64,000 nt of DNA from Fidelibacterota bacterium (lineage in GTDB: Bacteria > Pseudomonadota > Alphaproteobacteria > Rhodospirillales > Rhodospirillaceae): the NCBI GenBank assembly GCA_947475295.1, contig CANJLF010000013.1, positions 1-64,000 of the forward strand, read 5' to 3'. A program made the position numbers and the translations under genes. Positions 6,234 through 53,591 of this stretch are shown piece after piece. The first letter of the stretch is position 1. Each line of letters starts with the position of its first letter. The notes beneath the pieces are model-generated. The model was not told the DNA's origin, ran no database searches, and saw only the letters and a list, made by a program, of their open reading frames with translations.

Positions 6234-7787
6234 CTATTCCTTGATCGGGTTCGGCAGCTTCGCGGTGCCTCTAATATCAGCCATCGACATCTTGTTGGTC
6301 TCGTCCAGGATCTTGGCGAAGGCCCTGGCCGAATAGGTGAGGCCAACCGCCGGCACCAGCTCGGGCGTGTCGAGGGTGGTGTGATAGATCACGTGATCGA
6401 TGATGTGGAACGACGGTGCATAGGGGCTGACGGCTCCCAGCGACCCGCCGGCGCGCGTCTCGGCCTGCTTGTAGACCGAGACATTGAAGTCCTTCAGCGT
6501 CTTCTTCACAAGCTGCTGGAAGACCGGGCTGCCGCTGGCGAACCAGCGCCGCGCGCTGACGGCGTTGGAGGTCATGAGGTCGGCATTGACCATGTAAAGC
6601 AGAGTTTGCGACGTATGCTCGGCATTGAGCACCAGCGCCACTTTGCTCCAGTCGTAGTTCTTGATCATGAAGTCGCGCCCGGTTTCGCCGTGATGGTGAT
6701 CGGGCGTCGCCACGAACACCATCGTGCGCGGGCGCTGTGCTTGCGGCACGGCGGCGTAGTGGCGGGCGAGTTCAATCGCCGTCGCCATGCCGCTGGCGTT
6801 ATCCATGGCGCCTTGGAAGAAGCAGTCCGTATGGGTCATGACGAAGATCTGTTCGTCGGACTTGCCCGGCAGCGTGGCGTAAATGTTTTGGCTGGCCACG
6901 TTCTCGCGTTCTTCGATGTCGAGCTTCAGGCTGATCTGCACCTTCTGGCCGCTGGCGATCATGTCGCGCAACAGGAAGCCTTCATCCTGGCTGATGCTCA
7001 TGGTCGGCACGGCGCCGGCCCCCGTTGGCGCACCCTCAGGGTTAAACTGTCCGTTGCCCGGAACGGCCATGACGTTGATGATCATGGCGGCGCCCGCTTT
7101 GGTCGCCAGCGTATTGGAATTGAAAAGCCCAGCGCGGTCGCTGGCCGAGTGGCTGCGCCCGCCCGGCACGAAGATGCTATAGATGATGACGGCCTTGCCT
7201 TTGAGGTCGCGCCCCACCAGGTCGGCGTTGGAGCCGACGCCGACCCAGACCGCATCGGCGGTGATGCCGGCCTTCGGAGTCGCCACAGTTTCATTGATCG
7301 GGAAGGTGGTCAGCAGGCTGCCGGTCTTGCCGCCCCCACCTTGAACGCTTGTGCTGTAGCTGGCTTCCCAATGCGTCGGGTACCACAGCTTTGGAATCGT
7401 GAAAGCCTCGCGGCGGATTGTAAGGCCGAGTTTCTGGTATTCTTCCGCCATCAGCTCGGTGGTCATCTTGTCGTACTTGGTGCCGGTGATGCGGCCCCAA
7501 TACTGTTCGCCGTCGTCAAAGCTTTTAAGGGCAATGCCGGTGAATTTTTTCAGCGTTTCTTTGATGCGGTAGCCGTCGATGTCCTTATAGGCCTGCTGAT
7601 CGGCCTTGAGCGGAAACTCGGGGTAATCCTTATCGTCGAAGATCAGCTTGTCCATGTCGCGGGGCAGGCCGAGGCCGTAGGTCTTTTCGGTCTTGGCGCC
7701 GGGGCGCATCTGGGCGAATGAAAGGCTCGCCGGCAACAATAGCACCGCGAGCGCCGCAGCCACGGTGGTGCGAGTCATGCGAATCAT
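6234..7787 (-). CDS. Secreted M28-family peptidase-like protein with an altered metal site
   Basis: This 517-residue protein has a signal peptide (MIRMTRTTVAAALAVL..., cleaved near SFAQ). A protease-associated-like insert is at about 140-280, followed by an M28 zinc-peptidase core. The metal-site elements are HTDCFFQGAMDNASG, where the His and the Asp of MDNAS are expected zinc ligands, and IYHTTLDTPELVP near the C-terminus with the last His ligand. The usual catalytic Glu-Glu segment instead reads TPDHHHGETGRDF, so the catalytic/ligand pair appears replaced by histidines. I chose the start at 7787 because GGGGGAG lies nine bases upstream; the longer frame to 7832 has no such site. Confidence 0.83.
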   Translation of the reverse strand: MIRMTRTTVAAALAVLLLPASLSFAQMRPGAKTEKTYGLGLPRDMDKLIFDDKDYPEFPLKADQQAYKDIDGYRIKETLKKFTGIALKSFDDGEQYWGRITGTKYDKMTTELMAEEYQKLGLTIRREAFTIPKLWYPTHWEASYSTSVQGGGGKTGSLLTTFPINETVATPKAGITADAVWVGVGSNADLVGRDLKGKAVIIYSIFVPGGRSHSASDRAGLFNSNTLATKAGAAMIINVMAVPGNGQFNPEGAPTGAGAVPTMSISQDEGFLLRDMIASGQKVQISLKLDIEERENVASQNIYATLPGKSDEQIFVMTHTDCFFQGAMDNASGMATAIELARHYAAVPQAQRPRTMVFVATPDHHHGETGRDFMIKNYDWSKVALVLNAEHTSQTLLYMVNADLMTSNAVSARRWFASGSPVFQQLVKKTLKDFNVSVYKQAETRAGGSLGAVSPYAPSFHIIDHVIYHTTLDTPELVPAVGLTYSARAFAKILDETNKMSMADIRGTAKLPNPIKE

Positions 7788-8053
7788 AAAGTATTTCTCC
7801 CCCTTAAGGGCCGTCCATTTCCTGTCACCCAAAGGGGCGGAACGCGACCGGAGCCGAGACTAGCTTATCGCTAGGCTACGGGTCGAGTCGCAGGAGGAAT
7901 TTTCATCGATTCATAGCCGGCCGGAAAGGCAGCGGCATGCTGCATAGCGGCATAAAATAGCGGCACGTTAGCTCCCGCGGCCGAGGTCCAAGTTAGGCCC
8001 GTAATTATTGTGCAACCCACCCATAGGTCACCGCGGGATATTTGGGTTACGGC

Positions 8054-8083
8054 TTGGCATCAGCAGCGGCAGTCCTGTAAACT
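8054..8083 (+). promoter_or_regulatory. Sigma-70-type promoter of haem/propeller unit 1
   Basis: TTGGCA (8054-8059), an 18-base spacer ending CCTG, then TAAACT (8078-8083). The same architecture occurs upstream of the two downstream paralogues. It sits in the 439-base gene-free stretch 7788-8226; I see nothing else there except the leader at 8181-8226. Confidence 0.6.
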
Positions 8084-8180
8084 TTCTCCGGGCAAATGAA
8101 CTGCGCGGGGTGCGGCCTGGCCGGCTTTTCCGAACGGCGGCCACGTACCAAATCTGCGCATTTGGATCACTGAATACCGG

Positions 8181-8226
8181 CGAGCGGCCATTCGACCGTT
8201 CGGTCACACGAGGGAGATCAAGGACC
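8181..8226 (+). promoter_or_regulatory. Conserved 5' leader and ribosome site of unit 1
   Basis: The block CGAGCGGCCATTC ... TCGGTCACACGAGGGAG directly precedes the start codon. Nearly the same block (CGAGGCCAT ... GTCGGTCACACGAGGAGG) precedes the other two paralogues. The GAGGGAG part is the likely ribosome site. Confidence 0.6.
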
Positions 8227-10500
8227 ATGAATAAGCGGTTTGTCAGGGCACTTTGTGCGACGACGTGTTTTGTTACGGTCAGCAGCGCGTGGGTCAATGC
8301 GGGCCTGGCCGCTGCTGCATCCGCGGTGCCGGTCGTTGCCGACGGCATCGGCGGAACCGTGACGGGCACCAAAGGTCCTGAAGCCGGCGTGTGGGTCATC
8401 GCCGAGACCCACGACACGCCCACCAAGCTGGTGAAGATTGTGGTCACGGATGACCAAGGCCGTTTCATGCTGCCCGAATTGCCCAAGGCAAATTACGAAA
8501 TCTGGGTGCGCGGCTATGGCCTGGTGGACTCCGAACATGTCAAAGGCGCGCCCGGCAAGAACATCGACCTGAAGTCCGTGCAGGCGCCCGATGCGAAAGC
8601 GGCCGCCGAGTACTATCCCGCCAACTATTGGGAAGCGATGTTCAAGATTCCGGCCGCCAGCGAGTTCCCCGGCACCGGCCCCAAGGGCAACGGCATCGCG
8701 GCCAACATGAAGTCTCAGCAGCAGTGGCTGGAGCTTCTGAAGAACGGGTGCCATCAGTGTCACCAGCAGGGCGACAGGACCACACGCACGCTGCTCGACA
8801 ACACGCCGGAAGGCTGGGCTGATCGTATCACCAAAGCACGTTCCGCCGGCGACCAGGCGGTCGGCAACACCGGTCCGGAACACGCGTTGGCGATGCAGAA
8901 TCGCATGACTCAGTTCGGCCGCGCACGCGGCCTGAATATGTTCGCCAACTTCACACAGCGCGTCGCCAAGGGTGAAATCCCCAAGGAAGCGCCGCCGCGT
9001 CCGCAAGGCTTAGAGCGCAACATCGTTCTGACGGCCTGGGACTGGGCCAACGGCCGCTACACGCATGATCTCGTGTCGACGGATCGCAACAATCCAACCA
9101 TTAATGCCAACGGCCCGGTTTACGGCGTTGTCGGCGTGTGGGGGCATGTCGAAGTCTTGAACCCCGTCACGGCGACGCAGACGGAATTCGCCTACCGCGT
9201 CAACGAGACCAAGGGCGTCGACCTTCTTGCGCAACCCGATCTCACGCACAACGGCGTTCCACACAACCCGATGCTGGACAGCAAAGGCCGGCTGTGGATC
9301 ACCGACCGCGGCTACCGCGACCGCAGGGAAGCCGCCAAAGCGCCGCCGAAGCTGCCCTATTGTACCGATGCGGCCGTCAGCAAATACGCCAAGTATTATC
9401 CAATGCCGGGCAAGGCGACCCAGACCATGGTGGTGTGGGATCCCAAGACCAACAAGATCGACGGCATTTCGGTGTGCACCAATGTGCAACACTTAATGCA
9501 ATCCACTGACGGCAAGATGTTCATCAGCGGCGACACCAATGCCGCCGCCTGGATCGAGGTCGCCGAGTGGGACAAGTCTCACGACCAAGGCAAAGCCACC
9601 GGTTGGTGTCCGCTTGTGCTCGACACCAACTCCAAGACGCCATCCAAGGTTGGCGCTCTGAGCGAAGTAGTCATCGATCCCAACAAGGACAGCTGGAATA
9701 AGCCGGCGGGCGGCGGCGGCGGCGAAGGCGGCGAAGAAGGCGCGGCGGCGTCCGTTGTCGACGCCAAGCCAATCGATCCGACCAAGGACACGCGCATCAG
9801 CGGCTTTCTCTACGGCCAGGACGTCGACATGACCGACGGTTCCATGTGGTACGGCAAGACCAGTCCGTGGCCGAGCTCGATCATCAAGTTCAGCCCCGGG
9901 ACCAATCCGCCGGAAACCTGCCGCACCGAGGCCTACGAACCCACGAAGCTGGCCGACGGTAGTTACGAGGGCTACAACATCCGCGGCATGTCGGTTGATT
10001 CGAAGGGCGTTGCTTGGGCGGCCTTCGGCCAAGGCCGTTTGGGCAAGCTCGATCGGTCAAAATGCAAAGTGCTCTCCGGTCCGACCGCGACCGGCCAGCA
10101 TTGCCCCGAAGGCTGGACCTATTACAACTCGCCCGGCCCGAACTTTGAGGGCGTGAAGAACGGCTCGGCCGACTTCCACTATCTGATGTGGGTCGATCTG
10201 CACGACACCATGGGCTTTGGCAAAGATACGCCGATCGTCGCGGGATCGAACTCCGACTCGCTGCTGGCCTTCGATCCTAAGGCCGAAAAGTGGACCGTCA
10301 TGCGCGTGCCGTATCCGATGGACTTCCATACCCGCGGCATGGACGGCCGTATCGACAACGCTGCAGCCGGCTGGAAAGGTAAAGGCGTCTACGCCACCTA
10401 CGCCTCACAACCGGTCTGGCACCAGGAAGGCGGCGACGACGGCCTCTCAGGTCCGACCATGGTCAAATTCCAGCTGCGCCCCGGTCCGTTGGCTCACTAA
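8227..10500 (+). CDS. Secreted haem c / beta-propeller protein, paralogue 1
   Basis: This 757-residue protein has a signal peptide of about 30 residues ending in Ala-rich sequence. A carboxypeptidase-regulatory-like beta-sandwich follows (about 38-110: GGTVTGTKGPEAGVWVIAE ... VVTDDQGRFMLPELP). One haem c attachment motif, CHQCH, is at residues 175-179. A long C-terminal region (about 240-750) has repeated blade-like motifs such as MLDSKGRLWITDRG and MSVDSKGVAWAAFGQGRLG, resembling virginiamycin-B-lyase-type propellers. About a dozen Cys outside the haem site suggest disulfides. A Gly/Glu-rich linker near residues 498-511 is unique to this copy. It is presumably a periplasmic or exported electron-transfer or catalytic protein; the reaction is unknown. 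By eye it is roughly three-quarters identical to its two downstream paralogues. The start is set by the paralogue alignment and the GAGGGAG site. Confidence 0.85.
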   Translation: MNKRFVRALCATTCFVTVSSAWVNAGLAAAASAVPVVADGIGGTVTGTKGPEAGVWVIAETHDTPTKLVKIVVTDDQGRFMLPELPKANYEIWVRGYGLVDSEHVKGAPGKNIDLKSVQAPDAKAAAEYYPANYWEAMFKIPAASEFPGTGPKGNGIAANMKSQQQWLELLKNGCHQCHQQGDRTTRTLLDNTPEGWADRITKARSAGDQAVGNTGPEHALAMQNRMTQFGRARGLNMFANFTQRVAKGEIPKEAPPRPQGLERNIVLTAWDWANGRYTHDLVSTDRNNPTINANGPVYGVVGVWGHVEVLNPVTATQTEFAYRVNETKGVDLLAQPDLTHNGVPHNPMLDSKGRLWITDRGYRDRREAAKAPPKLPYCTDAAVSKYAKYYPMPGKATQTMVVWDPKTNKIDGISVCTNVQHLMQSTDGKMFISGDTNAAAWIEVAEWDKSHDQGKATGWCPLVLDTNSKTPSKVGALSEVVIDPNKDSWNKPAGGGGGEGGEEGAAASVVDAKPIDPTKDTRISGFLYGQDVDMTDGSMWYGKTSPWPSSIIKFSPGTNPPETCRTEAYEPTKLADGSYEGYNIRGMSVDSKGVAWAAFGQGRLGKLDRSKCKVLSGPTATGQHCPEGWTYYNSPGPNFEGVKNGSADFHYLMWVDLHDTMGFGKDTPIVAGSNSDSLLAFDPKAEKWTVMRVPYPMDFHTRGMDGRIDNAAAGWKGKGVYATYASQPVWHQEGGDDGLSGPTMVKFQLRPGPLAH

Positions 10501-10586
10501 AAAGGGGGCTCACGAAAGCGGAGGTTCACTAGAACGAGACTAAAGAATAATTTAAGAGTTCCGGCTCGGTCCGGGACAAAACCACG

Positions 10587-10629
10587 AACCCGCAGAATGG
10601 AGGAAGTGCTTCTATTCTGCGGGTTTTTT
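10587..10629 (+). terminator. Intrinsic terminator of unit 1
   Basis: A 12-base-pair stem, AACCCGCAGAAT / ATTCTGCGGGTT, is followed by TTTTTT and lies about 90 bases after the stop. The inner loop has GGAAG/CTTC that can extend the stem. It resembles the terminators of units 2 and 3. Confidence 0.85.
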
Positions 10630-10675
10630 AATGGATAGCTGGCTCTTCTTATTGCGGCGCACAATTTCCGGAATG

Positions 10676-10705
10676 TTGGCGTCACGCAGGCTAATCTTGT
10701 AGAAT
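10676..10705 (+). promoter_or_regulatory. Sigma-70-type promoter of haem/propeller unit 2
   Basis: TTGGCG (10676-10681), an 18-base spacer, and TAGAAT (10700-10705), then the block ATGCCGCGAAGGGA shared with unit 3. It lies in the 434-base gap 10501-10934, which otherwise holds only the unit 1 terminator and the unit 2 leader. Confidence 0.65.
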
Positions 10706-10893
10706 AAGCGCAGTTATTGGATGCCGCGAAGGGACTGGCCCGGCTTCCTGTAATGTCATCGCTTCAGTCCCAGGATGAATCATCAGAAACAGGCCACGAG
10801 AAAAAGGCGAGGCTCGACGTTTGGGCTAGCAATCACTGTTTTGGCGGAATGCCCGCCAGTGGAAATTTGTAGACATCGCGTTAAATACCGTCC

Positions 10894-10934
10894 CGAGGCC
10901 ATCCGGCTGTCGGTCACATGAGGAGGTTACGATT
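10894..10934 (+). promoter_or_regulatory. Conserved 5' leader and ribosome site of unit 2
   Basis: CGAGGCCATCCGGCTGTCGG then TCACATGAGGAGG precedes the ATG by nine bases. GAGGAGG is the ribosome site. The block matches the leaders of units 1 and 3. Confidence 0.65.
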
Positions 10935-13205
10935 ATGAATAGGCAGTTTATCAGGGCGCTCTGCGCGTCTACTTGTTTTGTTACCGTCAGCAGCGCGTGG
11001 GTTAATGCGAGCCTGGCCGCTGCTGCTGCATCCGCGGTACCGGTCGCTGCCGACGGCATCGGCGGAACCGTGACGGGCACCAAAGGTCCCGAAGCCGGCG
11101 TGTGGGTCATCGCGGAAACGCACGACCTGCCGACCAAGTTCATGAAAATCGTCGTCACCGACGATCAGGGCCGCTTCTATCTGCCCGAAATGCCCAAGGC
11201 GAAGTACGACATCTGGGTCCGCGGCTACGGCCTCGTTGACTCGGCCCATGTCGAAGGCACGCCCGGCAAGAATATAGATCTGAAGTCCGTGCAGGCGCCC
11301 GATGCAAAGGCCGCCGCCGAGTACTATCCCGCCAACTACTGGGAATCGATGTTCAAGATGCCGGCGCAGAGCGAGTTCCCCGGCACCGGCCCCAAGGGCA
11401 ACGGCATCGCGGCGAACCTCCAGTCGCAGCAACAGTGGCTGCAGCTCTTCAAGGACGGTTGCCATCAGTGTCACCAGCAGGGCGATAAGGTAACGCGCAC
11501 CCTGCTCGACAACACGCCGGAAGGTTGGGCCGATCGTATCTCCAAGGCGCGCGGCCCGGGCGACCAGGCCGTCGGCAACACCGGCCCCGAGCACGCCGCT
11601 TCCATGAACAACCGCATGACGCAGTTCGGTCGCACCCGCGGTCTGAACATGTTCGCCGACTTCACGCAACGCGTCGCCAAGGGCGAAGTTCCGAAGGTCG
11701 CGCCGCCGCGTCCGGCAGGCATCGAACGCAACATCGTTCTGACGGCGTGGGATTGGGGCAACGGCCGCTACATTCACGACGTTGTATCCACCGACCGCAA
11801 TAACCCGACCATTAACGCGAACGGCGAAATCTACGGCATCACCGCGTTTTCGGGTTACGTCGAAGTCCTGAACCCGGTTAAGCACACGTCCTATGAGTTC
11901 GCCTATCGCGTCGATGAAACCAAAGGCGTGAAGGTCCTTGAGAATCCGGATCCCGAACATGCCGGCGTACCGCACAACCCGATGCTGGACAGCAAGGGCA
12001 ATCTCTGGCTCACCGACCGTGGTTTCCGCGATCAGAAAGAAGCCGCCAAGGCGCCGCCGAAGCTGCCCTATTGCGCCGATCCGGCCGCCAGCCCCTTCGC
12101 CAAGTACTGGCCGCAGCCCGGCAAGGCGACCGCGACGATGGTTGAATACAATCCCAAGACCAAAGCCATCGCCGGGGTTCCGATGTGCAACAACTTGCAC
12201 CATCTGATGCAGGCCACCGACGGCAAGTTCTATACCAGCGGCGCCGGCCTCGCGAGCTGGGTCAACGTTCCGGAATGGGACAAGTCCCACGATCCGGCCA
12301 AGGCGGTGGGTTGGTGCCCGTTTGTGCTCGACACGAACTCCACCACACCGTCGAAGGCAGCGGCGCTCAACGCCGTGGCCATCACGCCTGACCGCGACCA
12401 ATGGAATAAGCCCGCGGGCGGTGCGCGCAGCAACGATCCGGAAAGCGCCAGCGTCGGCTCCGCCGAAACTGCGCCGATCGATCCGAAGAAGGACACGATG
12501 ATTGCCGGCGGCACCTACGGCATGGACGTGGATCCAGTTGAAGGCGGCATCTGGTACGCCAAGACCGGTCCGTGGCCCAGCCAGATCGTCAAGTTCAACC
12601 CCGGAACCAATCCTCCGGAAACCTGCCGCTCTGAATCTTTTGAAGCCGCGAAGCTGCCCGACGGCAGCTATGAGGGCTACAACGTCCGCGGCATGAGCGT
12701 CGACTCCAAGGGCGTTGCTTGGGCCGCCTTCGGCCAAGGCCGTTTGGGCAAGCTCGATCGTTCCAAGTGCAAAGTGCTCTCCGGTCCGACCGCGACCGGC
12801 CAGCATTGCCCCGAAGGTTGGAGCTACTACAACTTCCCGGGTCCGAACTTTGAAGGCGTAACGAACGGCACCACCGACTTCGCTTACCTGATGTGGGTCG
12901 ATCTGCACGACACTCTGGGCCTCGGCAAGGATGTTCCGGTCATCACCGGTTCAAACTCCGACTCGCTGCTCGCGTTCGACCAAAAAGCCGAAAAGTGGAC
13001 GGTTATGCGCGTGCCGTATCCGATGGGCTTCCATACCCGCGGCATGGACGGGCGTATCGACGACGCCAAAGCCGGTTGGAAAGGCCGCGGCATCTGGGCG
13101 ACCTACGCGACCGGTCCGGTCTGGCACCAGGAAGGCGGCGACGACGGTCTGTCGGGCCCGACGATGGTGAAGTTCCAGGTCCGTCCTGATCCGTTAGCTC
13201 ACTAA
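10935..13205 (+). CDS. Secreted haem c / beta-propeller protein, paralogue 2
   Basis: This 756-residue protein has the same layout as its neighbours: a signal peptide with hydrophobic core ending in SLAAAAAS, a carboxypeptidase-regulatory-like domain, haem motif CHQCH at residues 176-180, then the propeller region with MLDSKGNLWLTDRG and MSVDSKGVAWAAFGQGRLG. The Ser/Asn-rich linker near residue 496-515 differs from the other copies although both flanks are conserved. It has its own promoter, leader and terminator, so it is expressed separately. The start-to-start distance from paralogue 1 is 2708 bases and to paralogue 3 is 2691, consistent with tandem duplication of a whole transcription unit. 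Function unknown. Confidence 0.86.
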   Translation: MNRQFIRALCASTCFVTVSSAWVNASLAAAAASAVPVAADGIGGTVTGTKGPEAGVWVIAETHDLPTKFMKIVVTDDQGRFYLPEMPKAKYDIWVRGYGLVDSAHVEGTPGKNIDLKSVQAPDAKAAAEYYPANYWESMFKMPAQSEFPGTGPKGNGIAANLQSQQQWLQLFKDGCHQCHQQGDKVTRTLLDNTPEGWADRISKARGPGDQAVGNTGPEHAASMNNRMTQFGRTRGLNMFADFTQRVAKGEVPKVAPPRPAGIERNIVLTAWDWGNGRYIHDVVSTDRNNPTINANGEIYGITAFSGYVEVLNPVKHTSYEFAYRVDETKGVKVLENPDPEHAGVPHNPMLDSKGNLWLTDRGFRDQKEAAKAPPKLPYCADPAASPFAKYWPQPGKATATMVEYNPKTKAIAGVPMCNNLHHLMQATDGKFYTSGAGLASWVNVPEWDKSHDPAKAVGWCPFVLDTNSTTPSKAAALNAVAITPDRDQWNKPAGGARSNDPESASVGSAETAPIDPKKDTMIAGGTYGMDVDPVEGGIWYAKTGPWPSQIVKFNPGTNPPETCRSESFEAAKLPDGSYEGYNVRGMSVDSKGVAWAAFGQGRLGKLDRSKCKVLSGPTATGQHCPEGWSYYNFPGPNFEGVTNGTTDFAYLMWVDLHDTLGLGKDVPVITGSNSDSLLAFDQKAEKWTVMRVPYPMGFHTRGMDGRIDDAKAGWKGRGIWATYATGPVWHQEGGDDGLSGPTMVKFQVRPDPLAH

Positions 13206-13254
13206 GAGCTGCAAAAACGAAGCTTGGCCGCCTAAAGGCCAAGATCAAACGACC

Positions 13255-13299
13255 AACCTGCGGTGCGGGAGGTTTTCCTCCTCACCGCAGGTTTTTTTT
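13255..13299 (+). terminator. Intrinsic terminator of unit 2
   Basis: Stem AACCTGCGGTG / CACCGCAGGTT with an inner GGGAGG/CCTCC pairing, followed by eight T. The stem sequence is almost the same as that of the unit 3 terminator. Confidence 0.9.
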
Positions 13300-13400
13300 C
13301 CCGCACGTGAAGGATTTTTTGCGGCGGCTGGACCCTTCTCCATAGCTGTGGAAGTGGCTTTTTTTCCGCCACTTTGCATGGCCCATGTATGCAGCCCCGC

Positions 13401-13430
13401 TTGGCATGTATACAGTTTGTCCTGTAGAAT
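13401..13430 (+). promoter_or_regulatory. Sigma-70-type promoter of haem/propeller unit 3
   Basis: TTGGCA (13401-13406), an 18-base spacer ending GTCCTG, and TAGAAT (13425-13430), then ATGCCGCGATGGGA as in unit 2. It lies in the 420-base gap 13206-13625, which otherwise holds the unit 2 terminator and unit 3 leader. Confidence 0.68.
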
Positions 13431-13582
13431 TGGCCCGTTACGAATGCCGCGATGGGAATGCTCTGATTTGAGTATCGCCGCTTCGATATCGAGGGAGCTT
13501 TTTCAAAAGCAGCGCGCGCGGCTAACCGTTATTCGGCCATGGGCCGAACATCAGATTTGAAGATTTGATTCATAAAATGCCG

Positions 13583-13625
13583 CGAGGCCATCAGGCCTGT
13601 CGGTCACACGAGGAGGGCAAGGACC
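13583..13625 (+). promoter_or_regulatory. Conserved 5' leader and ribosome site of unit 3
   Basis: CGAGGCCATCAGGCCTGTCG then GTCACACGAGGAGGGCAAGG immediately precedes the ATG. GAGGAGGG is the ribosome site. Confidence 0.65.
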
Positions 13626-15890
13626 ATGAATAAGCAGTTTGTTAGGGCGCTGTTCGCGTCAACATGTTTCGTTACCGTCAGCGGCGCGTGGGTGAACGCA
13701 AGCCTCGCTGCCGCAGCAACAGCCATTCCGGTTGTCGCCAACGGCATCGGCGGCACCGTCACCGGAGCGAAAGGTCCTGAAGCCGGCGTGTGGGTGATCG
13801 CCGAGACGCACGACCTGCCGACCAAGTTCATCAAGATCGTCGTCACCGACGACCAGGGCCGCTACATGCTGCCAGAACTGCCCAAAGCAAATTACGAAGT
13901 CTGGGTCCGCGGCTATGGTCTCGTTGACTCAGCCCACATTAAAGCCGCGCCCGGCAAGAACCTCGATCTGAAGGCCGTGCAGGCGCCCACCCCTAAAGAC
14001 GCGGCGGAAATTTATCCGGCGAACTACTGGTTGGCTCTGATGAAGATCCCGGCCGAGAGCGAGTTCCCCGGCACCGGCCCCAAGGGCAACGGTATCGCCG
14101 CCAACATCAAGACACAGCAACAGTGGCTGCAGCAGCTGAAGGGCTGTCAGCGTTGCCACCAGCAGGGCGATAAGGTGACCCGCACCTTGCTCGACAACAC
14201 GCCGGAAGGTTGGGCCGATCGCATCACCAAGGCGCGCGCTGCGGGTGATCAGGCCGTCGGCAATACCGGTCCGGAACATGCCGCCGCCATGACGAACCAG
14301 ATGGCGCAGTTCGGCCGCGCACGCGGCTTGAACATGTTCGCCGACTTCACGCAGCGTATCGCCAAGGGCGAATTGCCCCCGGTGCCGCCGCGTCCGCAAG
14401 GCATCGAGCGCAACATCGTTCTGACGTCGTGGGATTGGGGCAACGGCCGCTACATCCACGATCTGACCTCGACCGACCGTAATAATCCGACCTTGAATGC
14501 CAACGGTCCGATCTACGGCATCACCGCGATGTCCGGTCACATTGAAGTCTTGGATCCAAACGGCCACAAGCAGTCGGAATTCGCTTACCGCGTCGAAGAA
14601 ACCAAAGGCGTGAAGCTTCTGGCTGAGCCGGATCCCGTGCAGAACGGCGTTCCGCATAATCCGATGATGGACAGCAAGGGCCGTCTCTGGCTGACCGACC
14701 GCGGCTTCCGCGATTCCAAAGAAGCCGCCAAGGCGCCGCCGAAAATGGCTTACTGCAACGACGGCAACATCAACAAATTCGCCAAGTACTATCCGCAGCA
14801 AGGCAAGGCGACCGCCACGATGGTGGTCTATGATCCCGCGACCAAGGGCATTGCCGGCGTTTCCATGTGCAACAACCTGCACCACTTGATGCAGGCCACC
14901 GACGGCAAGTTCTATACCACCGGTGCCGACCTCGCGAGCTGGGTTGACGTTCCGGAATGGGACAAGAGCCATGATCAAGCGAAGGCCGTAGGCTGGTGTC
15001 CGTTCGTGCTCGACACGAACTCCAAGACACCGTCTAAGGTCGGCGCGTTGAGCGAAACCGTCATCACGCCTGACCGCAATGCTTGGAATAAGCCCGCTGC
15101 TACGGGCCGTTCCATGGGCGGCGACGGCGAAAGCACCGCGATCGAAATCAACGATGCCGCGATTGATCCGACGAAGGACACGCGCATCTCCGGCGGTACC
15201 TACGGCATGGATGTGGACATGACCGACGGCGGCATGTGGTTCGCCCGCACCGGCCCGTGGCCGAGTTCGATCGTGAAGTTCAATCCCGGCACCAATCCGC
15301 CGGAAACCTGCCGTTCCGAAGTCTACGAAGCAGCGAAGCTGCCGGACGGCACCTACGAGGGCTACAACGTTCGCGGCATGAGCGTCGACTCCAAGGGCAT
15401 TGCCTACGGCGCCTTCGCGCAAGGCCGTTTAGGCAAGCTCGACCGTAGCAAGTGCAAAGTGATGAGCGGTCCCACGGCGACGGGTCAGCAATGCCCCGAA
15501 GGCTGGACCTATTACAACGTGCCCGGCCCGAACTACGCCGGCGTGAAGACTGGGGCCACCGACTTCGCCTATCTGATGTGGGTCGACCTGCATGACACCC
15601 TAGGCCTCGGCAAGGACATCCCGATCGTCACCGGTTCGAACTCCGACTCGCTCTTGGCGTTCGATCCGAAGAACGAAAAGTGGACCGTCCTGCGCGTGCC
15701 CTATCCGATGGACTTCCATACCCGCGGTATGGACGGCCGTATCGATAGCGCCGCAGCCGGCTGGAAAGGCAAGGCCGTTTACGCCACTTACGCCATGCAG
15801 CCCGTGTGGCACGAAGAAGGCGGCGACGACGGTCTCTCGGGTCCGACCATGGTTAAGTTCCAGGTCCGTCCCGATCCCCTCGCTTACTAA
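13626..15890 (+). CDS. Secreted haem c / beta-propeller protein, paralogue 3
   Basis: This 754-residue protein is built like paralogues 1 and 2: signal peptide, carboxypeptidase-regulatory-like domain at about 37-110, one haem c motif, here CQRCH at residues 174-178 with one residue fewer before it, and the propeller region to the end. The blade motifs MMDSKGRLWLTDRG and MSVDSKGIAYGAFAQGRLG show small substitutions relative to the others. It is the copy nearest the SoxC-like gene, which starts 182 bases downstream beyond a strong terminator. Partner proteins and substrate are not known; the conserved CXXCH and signal peptide argue for a role in periplasmic redox chemistry. Confidence 0.86.
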   Translation: MNKQFVRALFASTCFVTVSGAWVNASLAAAATAIPVVANGIGGTVTGAKGPEAGVWVIAETHDLPTKFIKIVVTDDQGRYMLPELPKANYEVWVRGYGLVDSAHIKAAPGKNLDLKAVQAPTPKDAAEIYPANYWLALMKIPAESEFPGTGPKGNGIAANIKTQQQWLQQLKGCQRCHQQGDKVTRTLLDNTPEGWADRITKARAAGDQAVGNTGPEHAAAMTNQMAQFGRARGLNMFADFTQRIAKGELPPVPPRPQGIERNIVLTSWDWGNGRYIHDLTSTDRNNPTLNANGPIYGITAMSGHIEVLDPNGHKQSEFAYRVEETKGVKLLAEPDPVQNGVPHNPMMDSKGRLWLTDRGFRDSKEAAKAPPKMAYCNDGNINKFAKYYPQQGKATATMVVYDPATKGIAGVSMCNNLHHLMQATDGKFYTTGADLASWVDVPEWDKSHDQAKAVGWCPFVLDTNSKTPSKVGALSETVITPDRNAWNKPAATGRSMGGDGESTAIEINDAAIDPTKDTRISGGTYGMDVDMTDGGMWFARTGPWPSSIVKFNPGTNPPETCRSEVYEAAKLPDGTYEGYNVRGMSVDSKGIAYGAFAQGRLGKLDRSKCKVMSGPTATGQQCPEGWTYYNVPGPNYAGVKTGATDFAYLMWVDLHDTLGLGKDIPIVTGSNSDSLLAFDPKNEKWTVLRVPYPMDFHTRGMDGRIDSAAAGWKGKAVYATYAMQPVWHEEGGDDGLSGPTMVKFQVRPDPLAY

Positions 15891-15942
15891 GAGGGGCCGA
15901 CTTAAGCCGACAAAGCTAAATGGGGCTTAGGCCCCGGCTACG

Positions 15943-15984
15943 ACCTGCGGTGTGGAGGACATCCCTCTCACCGCAGGTTTTTTT
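15943..15984 (+). terminator. Intrinsic terminator of unit 3
   Basis: Stem ACCTGCGGTG / CACCGCAGGT with inner GGAGG/CCTC pairing, then seven T. It separates unit 3 from the SoxC-like operon. Confidence 0.9.
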
Positions 15985-16072
15985 GTGCTTTGGCAAGGCG
16001 ACTCACATCATTGTGACTCACGGGAGCGGTGTTGGTGCTAGGCTGTAAATCTGACAGGGAGAGGTGACGCAC

Positions 16073-17383
16073 ATGGCTAAAAAAACTTCGAGCGATTTGG
16101 ATTTAGGCGAATTGGAACTGGCCGCCGGCAACGGCCTGGTGGATCGCCGCGGTTTTCTGAACCGCGCTGGCAGCGCCGCGGGCATTCTTGGTACCGGTCT
16201 TGCCTCGCTGGCGGTCTCGCCCGCCCAAGCTGATCCGCTCAAGGTCCAGGACTGGACCAAAACCCCCGGCCTTGGTTTCACCGCTTACGGCCAACCCTCG
16301 CAGTATGAAAACGGTGTCGGCCGCGGACCCATCGTCGAGCCCAACGCGATGTATAAAACCGGGCCCGGTTCGATCCGCTCGCCGCTACAATTCCTCGACG
16401 GCATGATCACGCCCAATGGCCTGCACTTTGAGCGCAGCCATAACGGCATCCCCGACATCAAGCCCGATGAGCACCGTCTGCTCATTCACGGCCTGGTCAA
16501 GCGCCCGCAGGTTTTCACGCTGGAGGCTTTATCGCGCTATCCCATGACCTCGCGCATCAGCTTTGTGGAATGCGCCGGCAACAGCGGCTCGCTCTACGGC
16601 AAGACCGCCGCAGACGGCACGGCACAGACGCTGCATGGGCTTTTGTCCTGCGCCGAATGGACGGGAGTCTCGTTGGCGCTGTTGCTCGATGAAGCCGGCG
16701 TCGATCCCAAAGCCAAGTGGCTTCTGGCTGAAGGCGCCGATGCCGCTTCCATGACCCGCAGCATCCCGCTGGCCAAGGCGCTCGATGACGCCATGATCCC
16801 GCTTTATCAGAACGGCGAACGCCTTCGCCCCTCCAACGGCTATCCCATGCGCCTCCTGGTGCCCGGCTATCAGGGCAACATGAACGTCAAATGGCTGCAC
16901 CGGCTGAAGCTGACCGAAGGCCCGACCATGACGCGCGATGAAACCTCGCGTTATTCGCTGCTGCTGAAGGAAGGCAAGGTCGCCCAGTTCAAGTTTCCGC
17001 TGGACGCCAAAGCGGTTATCACCAAGCCGTCGCCGGGCCTCACCATGAAGGGCGCCGGTCTTTATGAGATCAGCGGCCTGGCCTGGTCGGGCAACGGCAA
17101 GATCGTGCGCGTCGATGTCTCGGCCGACGGCGGCAAAAGCTTCGCGCCGGCGGTTTTGTCCGAGCCCGTGCTTTCAAAGGCGCTGACGCGCTTTCGCCTG
17201 CCATGGAAGTGGGACGGGGGCCCCGCGGTCCTGCAAGCCCGCGCTGTCGACGATACCGGCTATGTCCAGCCCACACGCGATGCGCTGGTGGCGGCGCGCG
17301 GGAACAGCCCCGCCTACCATAACAACGCCATCACCAATTGGGCTGTGGCAGTCGACGGAGGGCTCAAGCATGTTTACGCGTAA
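16073..17383 (+). CDS. SoxC-like sulfite-oxidase-family molybdoenzyme
   Basis: This 436-residue protein of the sulfite oxidase family most resembles the SoxC subunit of sulfur (sulfite) dehydrogenase. A twin-arginine motif (DRRGFLNRAG) and hydrophobic stretch mark Tat export. The Mo-ligand cysteine is in SFVECAGNSG at residue 167. A GMITPNGLHFERSHNG segment near residue 120 and the C-terminal dimerisation domain (about 300-436, with GLAWSGNGKIVRVDVSADGG) follow. The ATG at 16073 has GGGAGAGG nine bases upstream; an in-frame GTG at 16064 overlaps that site. The SoxD-like cytochrome gene overlaps its last 14 bases. No SoxXYZAB genes are nearby, so thiosulfate oxidation by a full Sox system is not supported here. 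Confidence 0.9.
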   Translation: MAKKTSSDLDLGELELAAGNGLVDRRGFLNRAGSAAGILGTGLASLAVSPAQADPLKVQDWTKTPGLGFTAYGQPSQYENGVGRGPIVEPNAMYKTGPGSIRSPLQFLDGMITPNGLHFERSHNGIPDIKPDEHRLLIHGLVKRPQVFTLEALSRYPMTSRISFVECAGNSGSLYGKTAADGTAQTLHGLLSCAEWTGVSLALLLDEAGVDPKAKWLLAEGADAASMTRSIPLAKALDDAMIPLYQNGERLRPSNGYPMRLLVPGYQGNMNVKWLHRLKLTEGPTMTRDETSRYSLLLKEGKVAQFKFPLDAKAVITKPSPGLTMKGAGLYEISGLAWSGNGKIVRVDVSADGGKSFAPAVLSEPVLSKALTRFRLPWKWDGGPAVLQARAVDDTGYVQPTRDALVAARGNSPAYHNNAITNWAVAVDGGLKHVYA

Positions 17384-17900
17384 CGCTCTGGGCGCCGCGC
17401 TGCTGGTTCTTGTGGCTGGTCAGGTTATTGCAGCTGAAACGCCGCACCTGGGAACGCCGGTAACGCCCGCCGATATCGCGGCCTGGGATACGTCCATCAG
17501 TCCCGACGGGACGGGCCTGCCGCCCGGCAAAGGCTCGGCAGCGCAGGGCAAGGAAATCTATGCCCTCAAGTGCACGGGCTGTCATGGCGTCGCTGGCGAA
17601 GGCAAACCCGCCGACCGCCTCACCGGTGGCCAGGGTTCGCTGGCGACCGACGCGCCGATCAAGACCGTCGGCAGCTACTGGCCTTACGCCACGACGCTGT
17701 TCGACTACGTGCGCCGCGCCATGCCGCTCAATGAACCGATGTCGCTGACGAATGACGAAGTCTATGCCGTCAGCGCCTATGTGCTGTCGCTCAATGGTTT
17801 GATCGGCGAGAAGACCGAGCTCAACGCCAAGACACTGCCCAAGATCAAGATGCCTAACCACGACAGCTTCTTCATCGTGTATCCGGGGAACTTGAAGTAG
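17370..17900 (+). CDS. SoxD-like cytochrome c
   Basis: This 176-residue protein has a signal peptide (MFTRNALGAALLVLV..., cleaved near VIAA) and one haem c motif, CTGCH at residues 68-72. A C-terminal segment (NEPMSLTNDEVYAVSAYVLSLNGLI) is characteristic of SoxD-type and related cytochromes, with a Met available as axial ligand. It would take electrons from the SoxC-like enzyme encoded upstream. The genes overlap by 14 bases, implying translational coupling, and the start is supported by GGAGGG before the ATG. It is shorter than two-haem SoxD proteins and has only one haem domain. Confidence 0.9.
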   Translation: MFTRNALGAALLVLVAGQVIAAETPHLGTPVTPADIAAWDTSISPDGTGLPPGKGSAAQGKEIYALKCTGCHGVAGEGKPADRLTGGQGSLATDAPIKTVGSYWPYATTLFDYVRRAMPLNEPMSLTNDEVYAVSAYVLSLNGLIGEKTELNAKTLPKIKMPNHDSFFIVYPGNLK

Positions 17901-17930: not shown

Positions 17931-18329
17931 CTAGCGGGTGGCCTTTTTCAGGCTCACGATGAAAGCTGTCACATCCATCGACTGCTGCGGCGAAAGCCTG
18001 AGGTTCGGCATCGTCGGATGGGGCGATGCCAGGAAGGTCCGCATCGCGACCTGAGTCATGCCGCGTGAATTCGCGATTGCCTGAAAGTCAGGCGCCGTTG
18101 TCAAATCGCGGGGCGCCTTCTGGTCCTGCGCAACCACGTGGCATGCGCTGCAGGTTGCCAAGGCGAAAACGCGCCCCGCGGCCGAATTGCCTATTGTCTT
18201 GACGCCAGGGGCGGCGCCTGAGGGGATCGGAGCCAACACGTCGTTTAAGATATAAGCCAAGCGCACGCCGGCCCGGCTGAGTTGTGTCGCGGCGATTTTT
18301 TGCGCTTTCGCGACGTCGTCATCACTCAA
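17931..18329 (-). CDS. Cytochrome c domain frame; probable 3' part of the S1/P1-nuclease gene beyond an in-frame UAG
   Basis: A 132-residue frame starts at a TTG four bases past the UAG that ends the upstream nuclease-like gene, in the same frame. Its first 30 residues (AKAQKIAATQLSRAGVRLAY) look like the missing last helix of S1/P1 nucleases. The rest is a class I cytochrome c domain with CSACH at residues 60-64 and a MPNLRLSPQQSMDVTAFI tail with a possible Met ligand. It has no signal peptide of its own, although haem c attachment takes place outside the cytoplasm. It therefore makes sense only as part of the upstream exported polypeptide, by stop readthrough, or as the remnant of a recently broken gene. 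Confidence 0.75.
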   Translation of the reverse strand: MSDDDVAKAQKIAATQLSRAGVRLAYILNDVLAPIPSGAAPGVKTIGNSAAGRVFALATCSACHVVAQDQKAPRDLTTAPDFQAIANSRGMTQVAMRTFLASPHPTMPNLRLSPQQSMDVTAFIVSLKKATR

Positions 18330-18332
18330 TAT

Positions 18333-19088
18333 CTAATTGCCTTTGGCATCCTGACGGCCGACCATGCCGTAAACGCCGTCGACGCCAAGCTGATGAGACT
18401 CCAAAGCCCAAAGATGCGGACCACCGCTTATCCATGCGGCCCGGTCGTATTCAGAAATTTCGCCAATCAGTTTTTGCGCCACCGCCTTGGACTCAACGCC
18501 CATCTGAATCACGAGCACCTTGTCCCAAAACGTAAACAGATCGCCTGGGGTCGTATCTTTCGTGACCACAGCCGTCTTCATGCCGTGAGTGTCTCCTTCG
18601 TCGGCCACGCGAAGCGGCTGATGCAGGTCGGCCACCAGATTGAGCAGAAATTTAAGCGCGAGAATCTGCTCCTCGCGGCTCGTTTTCGGATCCGCGAGCT
18701 CGTCCGCGAACTGATCGATCTTGTCGATTACGCAATCCCGCTCAGGCCCCATTGACGCGGGCGTCCCAGGCGGCAAAGCCGGCTGGCCGAAACAGGCGGC
18801 TGGAATGTTTGGGCGCGTGGCATCGATATTCGCGAAATGCCAATTGTGCGCGCGTCGATCCTGGATTTTGTCGGCCCATACGGCCGCCGCGGCTACATCG
18901 TTGCCGGCGGGCATATCCTTGTCCTCGCCGAGCAAGGTATAGACTTTGCCGAGTGCGGGTGCGGTCAGATAGTGGGTGGCGATCTCCGCCACAACCCTAT
19001 GCCCTTGGTCGTCCCAAGCCAGGGCCGGAGACGGCACGAAGGCCCTGGCGGCAAACAAAGTCAGCGCGGCAAGCGCGATTGAACGCAT
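18333..19088 (-). CDS. S1/P1 nuclease-like exported protein, ends at an in-frame UAG
   Basis: This protein of about 251 residues has a signal peptide (MRSIALAALTLFAARAF..., cleaved before WDDQGH). The mature N-terminal Trp and the nearby His of WDDQGHRVVAEIA match the zinc ligands of the S1/P1 family, as do the VWADKIQD Asp, the HNWHFANID His and the DLHQPL His. Two other positions differ from the family: QPLH reads QPLR, and NLHxxWD reads DLFTFWD. The protein stops at TAG (18333-18335) just before the expected last helix. GGGAGG lies seven bases before the ATG at 19088, and an FNR-type box lies about 90 bases upstream. Nuclease activity is doubtful. Confidence 0.8.
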   Translation of the reverse strand: MRSIALAALTLFAARAFVPSPALAWDDQGHRVVAEIATHYLTAPALGKVYTLLGEDKDMPAGNDVAAAAVWADKIQDRRAHNWHFANIDATRPNIPAACFGQPALPPGTPASMGPERDCVIDKIDQFADELADPKTSREEQILALKFLLNLVADLHQPLRVADEGDTHGMKTAVVTKDTTPGDLFTFWDKVLVIQMGVESKAVAQKLIGEISEYDRAAWISGGPHLWALESHQLGVDGVYGMVGRQDAKGN

Positions 19089-19151
19089 CAGAGCCTCCCT
19101 TATTGGCAGCATGGGAAAGCGAGCATTTCAGCTCCTTCCACGCGCCGAGCA

Positions 19152-52190: not shown

Positions 52191-53591
52191 ATGGAAGGCT
52201 CCGCCACCCCCGATTTGCCGCCTCCGCCCGACCGGCTCTCGCCCGCGACCATCGAGCGGCTTCAAGCCGCCGCCGTGCTGCTGCGCAAAGCTGAAAAACC
52301 CGTGCGTGTGCTGCGGGCCGTGGCCTGGGGACCCGAGGTGGCCCAGGCCTTTTTTGCCGCCGGGGAAAAAGAGCTGCCTAAGGTTACCTATACCCCGCTC
52401 GATGCCGCCCCGGTTCACGAAGCGCTCACGGCCGCGCGGGCGCTGATCGACGGGGATGGCCCTGTCCAGGCGTGGTTGTTGCGCATCGCCGATGTCATCG
52501 GCACGGGCGCCGACATGCTGGCGGGCATCGGCACCAAGGAATTCCATCGCCAGTCGGTGAAACTTTACGGCTCGCCGCAAACCGATCTGCTGAACTGCGA
52601 TGTGCGCCCGCTCGATCTCGCGCGCATGCTCGACTACGTGCTGGGCTCGTTCCACAATCTCGATATCAATCTCGACGCCAAGACCGAAGCCAGCACCACA
52701 TCGGAAGAGCTGGCCTTGCGTATGGCCAAGGTGCTGGCCCGCCACTTCGGCGAGGCCGCGCCCAAGATCGAGATTGTCGATCACCTGTCGTCAAATGCCT
52801 TGGCAGGCGCGCGCTACATCCGCATTCGGCGCGACGCGGTGTTCTCGGACCGCGACCTCGCACAACTCGTGCAGCACGAGGCCTTTGTGCATATTGCCAC
52901 GTCGCTGAACGGCGCCGCGCAAAGCGCATTTCCGATTTTGGGCGCCGGGCACCCGGGCACCACGCGCACGCAAGAAGGCCTCGCCGTTTTCGCCGAGCTG
53001 ATCTCCGGCGCCATGGATCCGTCGCGTTTGCTTCGCCTTGCCGACCGCGTGCTGGCGATTCAAATGTCCATGGACGGCGCTGATTTCCTCGAGCTCTATC
53101 GCTTCTTCGGTGAGCGTACCCACAATAAATTTTCCGCTTTTGAGAACGCGCGGCGTATTACGCGCGGCGGCTTGGTGGAAGGCGGCGGACCTTTCACCAA
53201 GGATTCGGTTTACCTCGAGGGCCTGGTGCGCGTGCACAACTTTCTGCGCATCGCCGTGCAGGAGACGCGCGTGGATTGTATACGCCTGCTGTTCGCTGGA
53301 AAGATGGACATCGACGACATGCCAGCCATTACCACGCTGGCCGCCCACGGCCTCTGTACCTTCCCGCGCTTCCTGCCGCCCTGGGCCAGGGATTTGCGCT
53401 TCGTGCTGTCCTATATCGCCTACTCGTCGTTCTTGAACCGCATGAACCTGGAACGGGTGCGCGATCACTATAAAGCCATGCTGGACAGCTGCGCGCCGGC
53501 GATGCAGTCGCCCGGCGCCGGCCCGCCGGCGCCAATGTCACCCCTCGGCGTCATGGGCGGCCTCATGGGCCCGCCCGGCGGCGACCATTAG
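52191..53591 (+). CDS. DUF1704 / QEGLA-motif metallopeptidase-like protein
   Basis: This 466-residue protein carries HEAFVH (HExxxH) near residue 235 followed by TRTQEGLAVFAEL, the signature of the DUF1704 family. Bacterial members are often annotated as flavohaemoglobin-expression-modulating QEGLA proteins, and animal members are tubulin/tyrosine carboxypeptidases. The two His and the Glu of QEGLA form a plausible zinc site. No signal peptide is seen, so it should be cytoplasmic. The ending is Pro/Gly-rich. The bacterial substrate is not known. Confidence 0.88.
   Translation: MEGSATPDLPPPPDRLSPATIERLQAAAVLLRKAEKPVRVLRAVAWGPEVAQAFFAAGEKELPKVTYTPLDAAPVHEALTAARALIDGDGPVQAWLLRIADVIGTGADMLAGIGTKEFHRQSVKLYGSPQTDLLNCDVRPLDLARMLDYVLGSFHNLDINLDAKTEASTTSEELALRMAKVLARHFGEAAPKIEIVDHLSSNALAGARYIRIRRDAVFSDRDLAQLVQHEAFVHIATSLNGAAQSAFPILGAGHPGTTRTQEGLAVFAELISGAMDPSRLLRLADRVLAIQMSMDGADFLELYRFFGERTHNKFSAFENARRITRGGLVEGGGPFTKDSVYLEGLVRVHNFLRIAVQETRVDCIRLLFAGKMDIDDMPAITTLAAHGLCTFPRFLPPWARDLRFVLSYIAYSSFLNRMNLERVRDHYKAMLDSCAPAMQSPGAGPPAPMSPLGVMGGLMGPPGGDH

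Follow-up and report, generated by a model that had tools for sequence, protein, structure and literature searches.

What does a bacterium gain by keeping three adjacent copies of a gene for a secreted protein that joins a haem c motif to a propeller-like region, and what would such a protein do? The question is raised by a locus of Fidelibacterota bacterium (GTDB lineage Alphaproteobacteria; Rhodospirillales; Rhodospirillaceae; assembly GCA_947475295.1), which lies within the first 64,000 nucleotides of the forward strand of contig CANJLF010000013.1, hereafter the window. An initial annotation, made from the letters of this stretch, had described there three secreted paralogues, each with a carboxypeptidase-regulatory-like domain, a single CXXCH and a propeller region, had recognised no named system in them and had proposed either gene dosage or different substrates as the reason for keeping three. 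Our favoured answer, to which we give a probability of about 0.47, is that these proteins are periplasmic cytochrome-c-linked oxidoreductases, in which the propeller would hold the substrate site and the haem would be the exit for electrons, with copies diversified by substrate.

Architecture and Conservation of the Proteins

The open reading frames (ORFs) confirmed three paralogues of 754-757 residues lying head to tail, all on the forward strand, at positions 8227-10500 (copy 1, 757 amino acids), 10935-13205 (copy 2, 756 amino acids) and 13626-15890 (copy 3, 754 amino acids), with 2708 and 2691 bases from one start to the next. A single CXXCH is present in each protein and reads CHQCH at residue 175 in copy 1, CHQCH at 176 in copy 2 and CQRCH at 174 in copy 3. 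The best explanation of these proteins is a chain in three parts, namely (in the numbering of copy 2, used from here on) an N-terminal beta-sandwich at about 41-120, a c-type segment with one haem whose CXXCH occupies residues 176-180, and a C-terminal beta-propeller of the Vgb/SMP-30 type at about 260-756; in copy 1 the CarboxypepD_reg-like domain, haem c segment and propeller-like region follow a signal-like start. At the DNA level, ten families of repeats with 70-87% identity run across the trio, nine of them with all three copies.

The carboxypeptidase-regulatory-like domain (PF13620) is recognised in copies 1, 2 and 3 with E values of 9e-6, 6e-4 and 3e-5, at 20.5-26.4 bits and so under the Pfam cut-off of 32.3. 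It is also matched in 60 of the 61 members scanned (E<=0.1; best 3e-8), these being the part of the 108 full-length members of the family that our Pfam and NCBIfam scans covered. No family of either database covers the rest of the protein in the trio or in those 61 members, where scattered weak matches to SGL, NHL, Reg_prop, EF-hand and L-NosZ were each seen in one to five members; an EF-hand-like calcium loop pattern occurs in 28 of the 108 and is absent from the trio. The domain order first described thus holds, with a sub-threshold PF13620-like domain, a single CXXCH and a propeller that comes from a low-confidence model, and so does the view that this is no named system, as beyond that first domain no Pfam, NCBIfam or PDB family covers the proteins.

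In all, 121 members of the family were collected; the 108-row counts exclude 13 of these, which are incomplete and include one truncated duplicate (G305_C370_12002). Conservation of the CXXCH had been named beforehand as a point on which the reading would stand or fall, and the reading survives, since the single motif is conserved at the same place in 108/108 full-length members. Met224 is equally invariant (108/108) and, to judge from the alignment, is the probable distal ligand of a haem with His/Met ligation; the spacing from the histidine of the CXXCH to this methionine is 44 in 65 of the 108, and 28-52 overall. The propeller region keeps three near-invariant histidines, His281 (107/108), His347 (106/108) and His423 (107/108), along with Tyr528 and Asp656 (108/108 each), Arg585 (99/108) and the invariant Glu264, Asp282, Asp520 and Glu567.

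Four cysteines, Cys380, Cys418, Cys612 and Cys625, are also present in 108/108, and a further pair, Cys461 and Cys564, shows perfect covariation, with both cysteines in 93 members and both replaced in 15, which is the pattern expected of a disulfide. Taken together, the invariant cysteines and the co-varying pair fit an oxidising compartment, and a signal-like start, detected by a crude test in 95 of the 108, suggests that the proteins are probably exported to the periplasm. The same pair divides the family into a type A (pair absent, n=15), mostly found once per genome over several families, and a type B (pair present, n=93), which is the expanded form. A quickly built tree, with support by the SH-like approximate likelihood ratio test (SH-aLRT) only, splits the members 16/92 instead of the 15/93 of the cysteine pair, the odd row being G014_C15_1774 on a long branch. 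Two more sequences outside the alignment, from G861 and G877, keep the CXXCH, Met224, the three histidines and the four cysteines, and have neither Cys461 nor Cys564.

A low-confidence AlphaFold model of residues 257-756 was used for the fold, since a whole-protein model made with 8 close sequences reached a mean predicted local distance difference test score (pLDDT) of 28.7 and was not used. The only sequences supplied for modelling were those of window proteins and of the related loci L006, L007 and L008. The propeller model aligned to 972 chains, 749 of them at Z>=8 (Foldseek, VIA-align), and the PDB matches listed are, judged by their titles, nearly all beta-propellers; against Vgb (2z2n) it gave a Z of 13.2 and a root-mean-square deviation of 4.2, with 269 of 293 residues aligned. 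A weak internal repeat (289-360 against 381-435) in a profile self-comparison was also counted for a propeller. The model would therefore support a propeller fold with low confidence and without detail. The enzymes among its matches are Vgb, Drp35, luciferin-regenerating enzyme, xylonolactonase and the RPA3624 lactonase, which, with single weak SGL (E 0.0084) and NHL (E 0.017) matches among the 61 members scanned, would be in keeping with a Vgb/SMP-30-type enzyme (hydrolase, lyase or lactonase) whose haem segment is structural or sensory. We regard such a function as improbable, because a CXXCH and a methionine constant in 108/108 members would be unlikely for a dispensable haem, and because a propeller fold by itself says nothing on function.

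Divergence and Transcription of the Three Copies

The copies share 76-79% pairwise identity, with synonymous divergence (dS) of 0.68-0.82, nonsynonymous divergence (dN) of 0.147-0.163 and dN/dS ratios of 0.20-0.22, and the trio is under purifying selection. The age of these copies can be judged from G018, the genome of a second species in the genus, in which each copy has its own best match: copy 1 at 90% identity, copy 2 at 81% over 489 amino acids, on the same contig and in the same order as the copy 1 match, and copy 3 at 88% over 308 amino acids, in a gene end at the start of the contig that carries SoxC. Across the other pairings identity is only 72-77%. The tree, in which only the copy 1 pair was assessed, joins that pair with an SH-aLRT of 100. 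Such one-to-one matches argue for old copies kept apart, in a triplet that probably predates the split of the window species and G018 and is no assembly artefact. The copy 3 match itself (L159 1-1002, G018:C7) has an in-frame stop near the contig edge, which may be a broken gene or an assembly error. In a further genome, G016, the corresponding place, between an M28 peptidase and lepA, holds two copies. In the window, the gene of an M28-type peptidase (6234-7832, reverse strand) points away from copy 1, and both G016 and G018 have a relative of it at the corresponding position.

The distances give a more nuanced view. From copies 1, 2 and 3 to their G018 matches dN is 0.059, 0.115 and 0.092 and dN/dS is 0.064, 0.168 and 0.125. 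Within genomes, the ratio is 0.122 between copies 1 and 2 of G018 and 0.140 between the two copies of G016, so that the comparison of ratios suggested by the initial annotation fails to separate copies from orthologues everywhere. In addition, the window copies are no further apart in dS than they are from the G018 orthologues (0.69-0.92), a result compatible with gene conversion; either this process or base composition may have reduced the values within the trio, and the proportion of synonymous differences (pS) is as low as 0.23-0.33 in some stretches of 60 codons when copy 2 is compared with copy 1 or copy 3.

Each copy is, judged from sequence, its own transcription unit, as had been proposed. 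Promoter-like sites of the shared pattern TTGGC(A/G)-N18-TA(A/G)A(A/C)T, all consensus matches only and all on the forward strand, stand upstream of copy 1 (TTGGCA-N18-TAAACT, 8054-8083), copy 2 (TTGGCG-N18-TAGAAT, 10676-10705) and copy 3 (TTGGCA-N18-TAGAAT, 13401-13430). As a scan gave 4 such sites where shuffled sequence would give 2.9, hardly above chance, what support they have comes from their similar placement ahead of every copy and not from the number of sites; G018 has an aligned TTGGCA...TAGACT stretch upstream of its first copy. Downstream, a terminator-like hairpin with a T run follows each gene on the same strand: 10589-10631 for copy 1 (hairpin 10589-10623, -24.8 kcal/mol), 13257-13299 for copy 2 (hairpin 13257-13291, -27.8 kcal/mol) and 15944-15985 for copy 3 (hairpin 15944-15977, -24.3 kcal/mol). 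These hairpins were read directly from the sequence; the terminator scan (16 against 11.6 expected) picked up only part of the copy 2 hairpin and neither of the other two. The span first given for the locus, 8054-15984, thus runs from the first promoter-like site to the last T run.

Similar promoter-like sites and terminators on all three genes, a dS between copies no larger than to orthologues and the local drops in pS are what would be expected if the three did the same job, their number serving high expression and gene conversion having made them partly uniform, an explanation compatible with any of the functions considered here. Pure dosage nevertheless seems to us quite unlikely, given that all three copies have one-to-one best matches in G018 and that dN between copies exceeds dN to those matches. 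A possible substrate signature at residues 301-520, where changes are denser, was set aside, since it is weak (p of 0.048, 0.091, 0.127, 0.128 and 0.350 in five Fisher tests) and copy 2 shows the same density against its own orthologue; this weak excess adds little on the dosage question. Between the two reasons first offered for the trio, different roles are favoured over pure dosage by the G018 matches, by dN and by the varied gene settings described below; that the roles differ by substrate is a step further, which we infer.

A Family Expanded in One Genus

The three window copies are a small case of a much larger family expansion. In the window's own assembly a second contig (G000:C26) carries a fourth member, which is more distant at about 49% identity, and the listing of genomes that the initial annotation had suggested gave 14 carriers among 61 relatives' genomes (E<=1e-10), namely 11 of 19 in the genus, with neighbours that vary, 3 of 18 in the rest of the taxonomic family and 0 of 24 in the rest of the order. 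Full scoring of five genomes yielded 27 matching stretches in G001, 20 in G009, 13 in G010, 6 in G305 and 7 in G385; as some stretches are halves of one gene, G001 would have 24 genes and an end fragment, and G009 would have 19 genes, five of its copies standing in a row. The 3.5 Mb genome of G001 thus holds about 25 family genes. If the redox reading is right, the family would be a good example of redox proteins that multiply by tandem duplication while their copies stay distinct from one species to another.

Farther away its presence is scattered. Wider scans, in which 2-3 candidates were scored per genome and the window's own genome was counted each time, gave lower bounds of at least 10 carriers among 297 genomes of the order, at least 10 among 385 of the class and at least 3 among 398 of the phylum, where the carriers beyond the window's genome are two large genomes of one genus in the same class. 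A plasmid search found one relative, in Microvirga ossetica (38.5% identity), a search of genome contigs found three loci, and among viral contigs 102 pattern matches included no relative. No 16S gene was found in the window's assembly, and the class, Alphaproteobacteria, was settled by a permuted alpha_tmRNA, which was present in all six genomes tested (G016 included) and, among 14 controls, in Caulobacter only.

Gene Neighbours and Proposed Function

The genes around the family were examined within 8 kb of all 121 members, incomplete ones included and many with cut flanks, using 19 labelled queries. Lipoprotein_15 was found near 19 members, DUF1552 near 17, acyl-CoA dehydrogenase near 14, and DUF1592, pyrroloquinoline quinone (PQQ)-dependent alcohol dehydrogenase (PQQ-ADH) and an unnamed protein near 11 each, followed by a tannase-like esterase (9), CoA-transferase III (8) and aldehyde dehydrogenase (5). 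Some TonB receptor lies near 27 of the 121, and at least one of five catabolic enzyme families near 34. Lipoprotein_15 stands less than 700 bases from the family gene in ten cases, and in four of these (G001_C1, G001_C61, G010_C61 and G011_C20) the whole run of unnamed protein, DUF1592, DUF1552, Lipoprotein_15 and family member is found. DUF1552 occurs near 16 of 73 members in six genomes, against 4.2 expected from its density, with the caveat that tandem copies are not independent, so that a Poisson value exaggerates the excess; all 18 genomes tested, family carriers or not, have 6-28 DUF1552 matches each, and the 14 controls have none.

A constant haem segment, constant polar residues and changing neighbours fit a substrate-diversified oxidoreductase. 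What we infer, from catalysis, metal and substrates to pocket, electron flow, export and propeller geometry, would work as follows. A small organic compound would bind at the mouth of the propeller, in a putative pocket formed by the hardly varying His281, His347, His423, Tyr528, Arg585 and Asp656, the last three of which, on a reading by eye, may sit on further blades and face the same mouth. Oxidation would occur in this pocket, whether or not the three histidines hold a metal, and electrons would exit one by one via the haem of the same chain, first to a soluble cytochrome of the periplasm and from there to a terminal oxidase. All paralogues would share this machinery and differ in the mouth that takes the substrate, and their genes lie close to those of TonB receptors, alcohol dehydrogenases of the periplasm and acyl-CoA enzymes. 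According to the available text of PMC9456337, propeller enzymes that feed a one-haem cytochrome c are found in the pairs of PQQ-methanol dehydrogenase with cytochrome cL and of thiocyanate dehydrogenase with cytochrome c552. As analogues, these pairs show that a mechanism of this kind can work.

Several observations weigh against the oxidoreductase reading. No Pfam cytochrome c profile is listed for the 61 members at E<=0.1, so the haem assignment relies on the motif and the methionine. The 108-row profile found no PDB relative at E<=1, a 61-row profile gave at E<=10 only a short beta-sandwich match to SdrD, and no characterised oxidoreductase was matched by sequence. The propeller model has a mean pLDDT of 44 and a predicted template modelling score (pTM) of 0.43, and many WD40 scaffold proteins score slightly above Vgb, up to a Z of 14.2. 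Each of the three histidines is missing in one or two members; the alignment of the internal repeat, at a probability of just 8%, pairs His347 with His422 (kept in 91/108) and not with the adjoining His423, so that the pocket remains a proposal. As to the neighbours, 47 of the 121 members have none of the 19 labelled ones, 25 of them with short flanks and 15 with the full 16 kb, and in G861 and G877 the listed ORFs show no evident enzyme operon with the gene.

The main rival takes part of this evidence the other way. The proteins could be non-catalytic electron carriers or hubs, in which propeller and beta-sandwich dock partner dehydrogenases (SoxC-like, PQQ-ADH or DUF1592 proteins), the haem relays electrons and the copies fit different partners. 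A single haem motif, redox neighbours that vary and WD40 scaffolds among the best fold matches all suit this role, and so does the gene next to the trio, a SoxC-type molybdopterin sulfite dehydrogenase (16064-17383, forward strand; TIGR04555, 559.8 bits against a cut-off of 420), a separate unit outside the family. The SoxC-like gene starts 258 bases after the last copy in the window and 249 in G018, and its end is overlapped by the gene of a small cytochrome c with one CXXCH, reading CTGCH (17370-17900, forward strand; PF00034, 1.1e-11, tested from 17364). In five of the seven genus genomes having both, SoxC lies on the same contig as a family member, 0.25-13.5 kb off. In G009 and G011, however, it is on contigs without a family member, and it is above cut-off in all nine genus genomes tested, including two (G003 and G015) where no family member was found; in G016 the one SoxC sits away from the two-copy locus. 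The SoxC pair is thus only loosely linked to the family, and with invariant polar residues in the propeller that would suggest a small-molecule site, we consider a carrier role possible yet rather doubtful. A Sox sulfur-oxidation role, considered as the principal reading, was rejected, as SoxC occurs in genus genomes where no family member was found and as, of 11 genomes tested, 2 gave a SoxY and the other 9, the window's included, gave none.

Other features of the region deserve a brief record. A second SoxC-like match, under the cut-off, is present at G000:C28. Beyond the cytochrome c gene, at 17931-19112 on the reverse strand, an S1/P1 nuclease ORF ends near profile position 221 of 258. The next ORF starts with a weak nuclease match (E 0.0047, positions 231-257) and runs on into a cytochrome c domain, so that the two resemble a single nuclease-cytochrome c fusion broken into separate frames. 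Farther along, 52191-53591 encodes a bacterial protein that matches MATCAP (PF08014, E 1.8e-118), the microtubule-associated tyrosine carboxypeptidase.

The oxidoreductase reading can be carried further, to an undescribed class of self-contained periplasmic oxidoreductases, with a three-histidine and possibly metal-binding site in the propeller wired to a built-in haem c, radiated in one genus of uncultured alphaproteobacteria to about 25 genes in one genome, each fitted to a different organic compound, beside DUF1552/DUF1592 proteins. The architecture was not described in the open-licence literature searched, and we put this wider proposal forward tentatively, as a minority expectation. If true, it would give a handle on the periplasmic oxidation of poorly characterised organic matter by small-genome bacteria, and a second family, beside DUF1552 and DUF1592, for testing what those abundant proteins do.

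Comparison with Known Systems

Vgb and the SMP-30/Drp35-type propellers probably share their general fold with the family's propeller, as far as the model can tell; no sequence match to it was found, and other propellers score alike on the same low-confidence model. No NCBIfam Vgb match is listed for the trio or the 61 members. Proteins of the Vgb and SMP-30/Drp35 types are not known to have a haem segment or a regulatory-like domain. On the copper-binding propeller residues of thiocyanate dehydrogenase and of lactonase-type N2O reductase (L-NosZ), the family offers its three conserved histidines and, in one of the 61 members, a weak NCBIfam match to L-NosZ (E 0.0089).

The PSD/PSCyt proteins (DUF1592, DUF1588) and DUF1552 are often in the same gene runs as the family, and none of the profiles listed for the 61 members is a PSD, PSCyt or DUF1552 one. 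PSCyt/PSD proteins are, in the available text of PMC5615132, numerous in freshwater Verrucomicrobia and of unknown function. As for the SoxCD sulfite/sulfane dehydrogenase, SoxC is the next gene both in the window and in G018, and in the window it forms a separate unit past the terminator-like hairpin.

A likeness in the proposed function is to thiocyanate dehydrogenase with cytochrome c552, PQQ-methanol dehydrogenase with cytochrome cL and quinohaemoprotein alcohol dehydrogenase, which, in the available text of PMC9456337, are propeller oxidoreductases passing electrons to a one-haem cytochrome c. PQQ propeller profiles (PF01011/PF13360) have no match in the trio and none listed for the 61 members, and a feature that sets the family apart from those enzymes is a haem segment placed ahead of the propeller in one chain.

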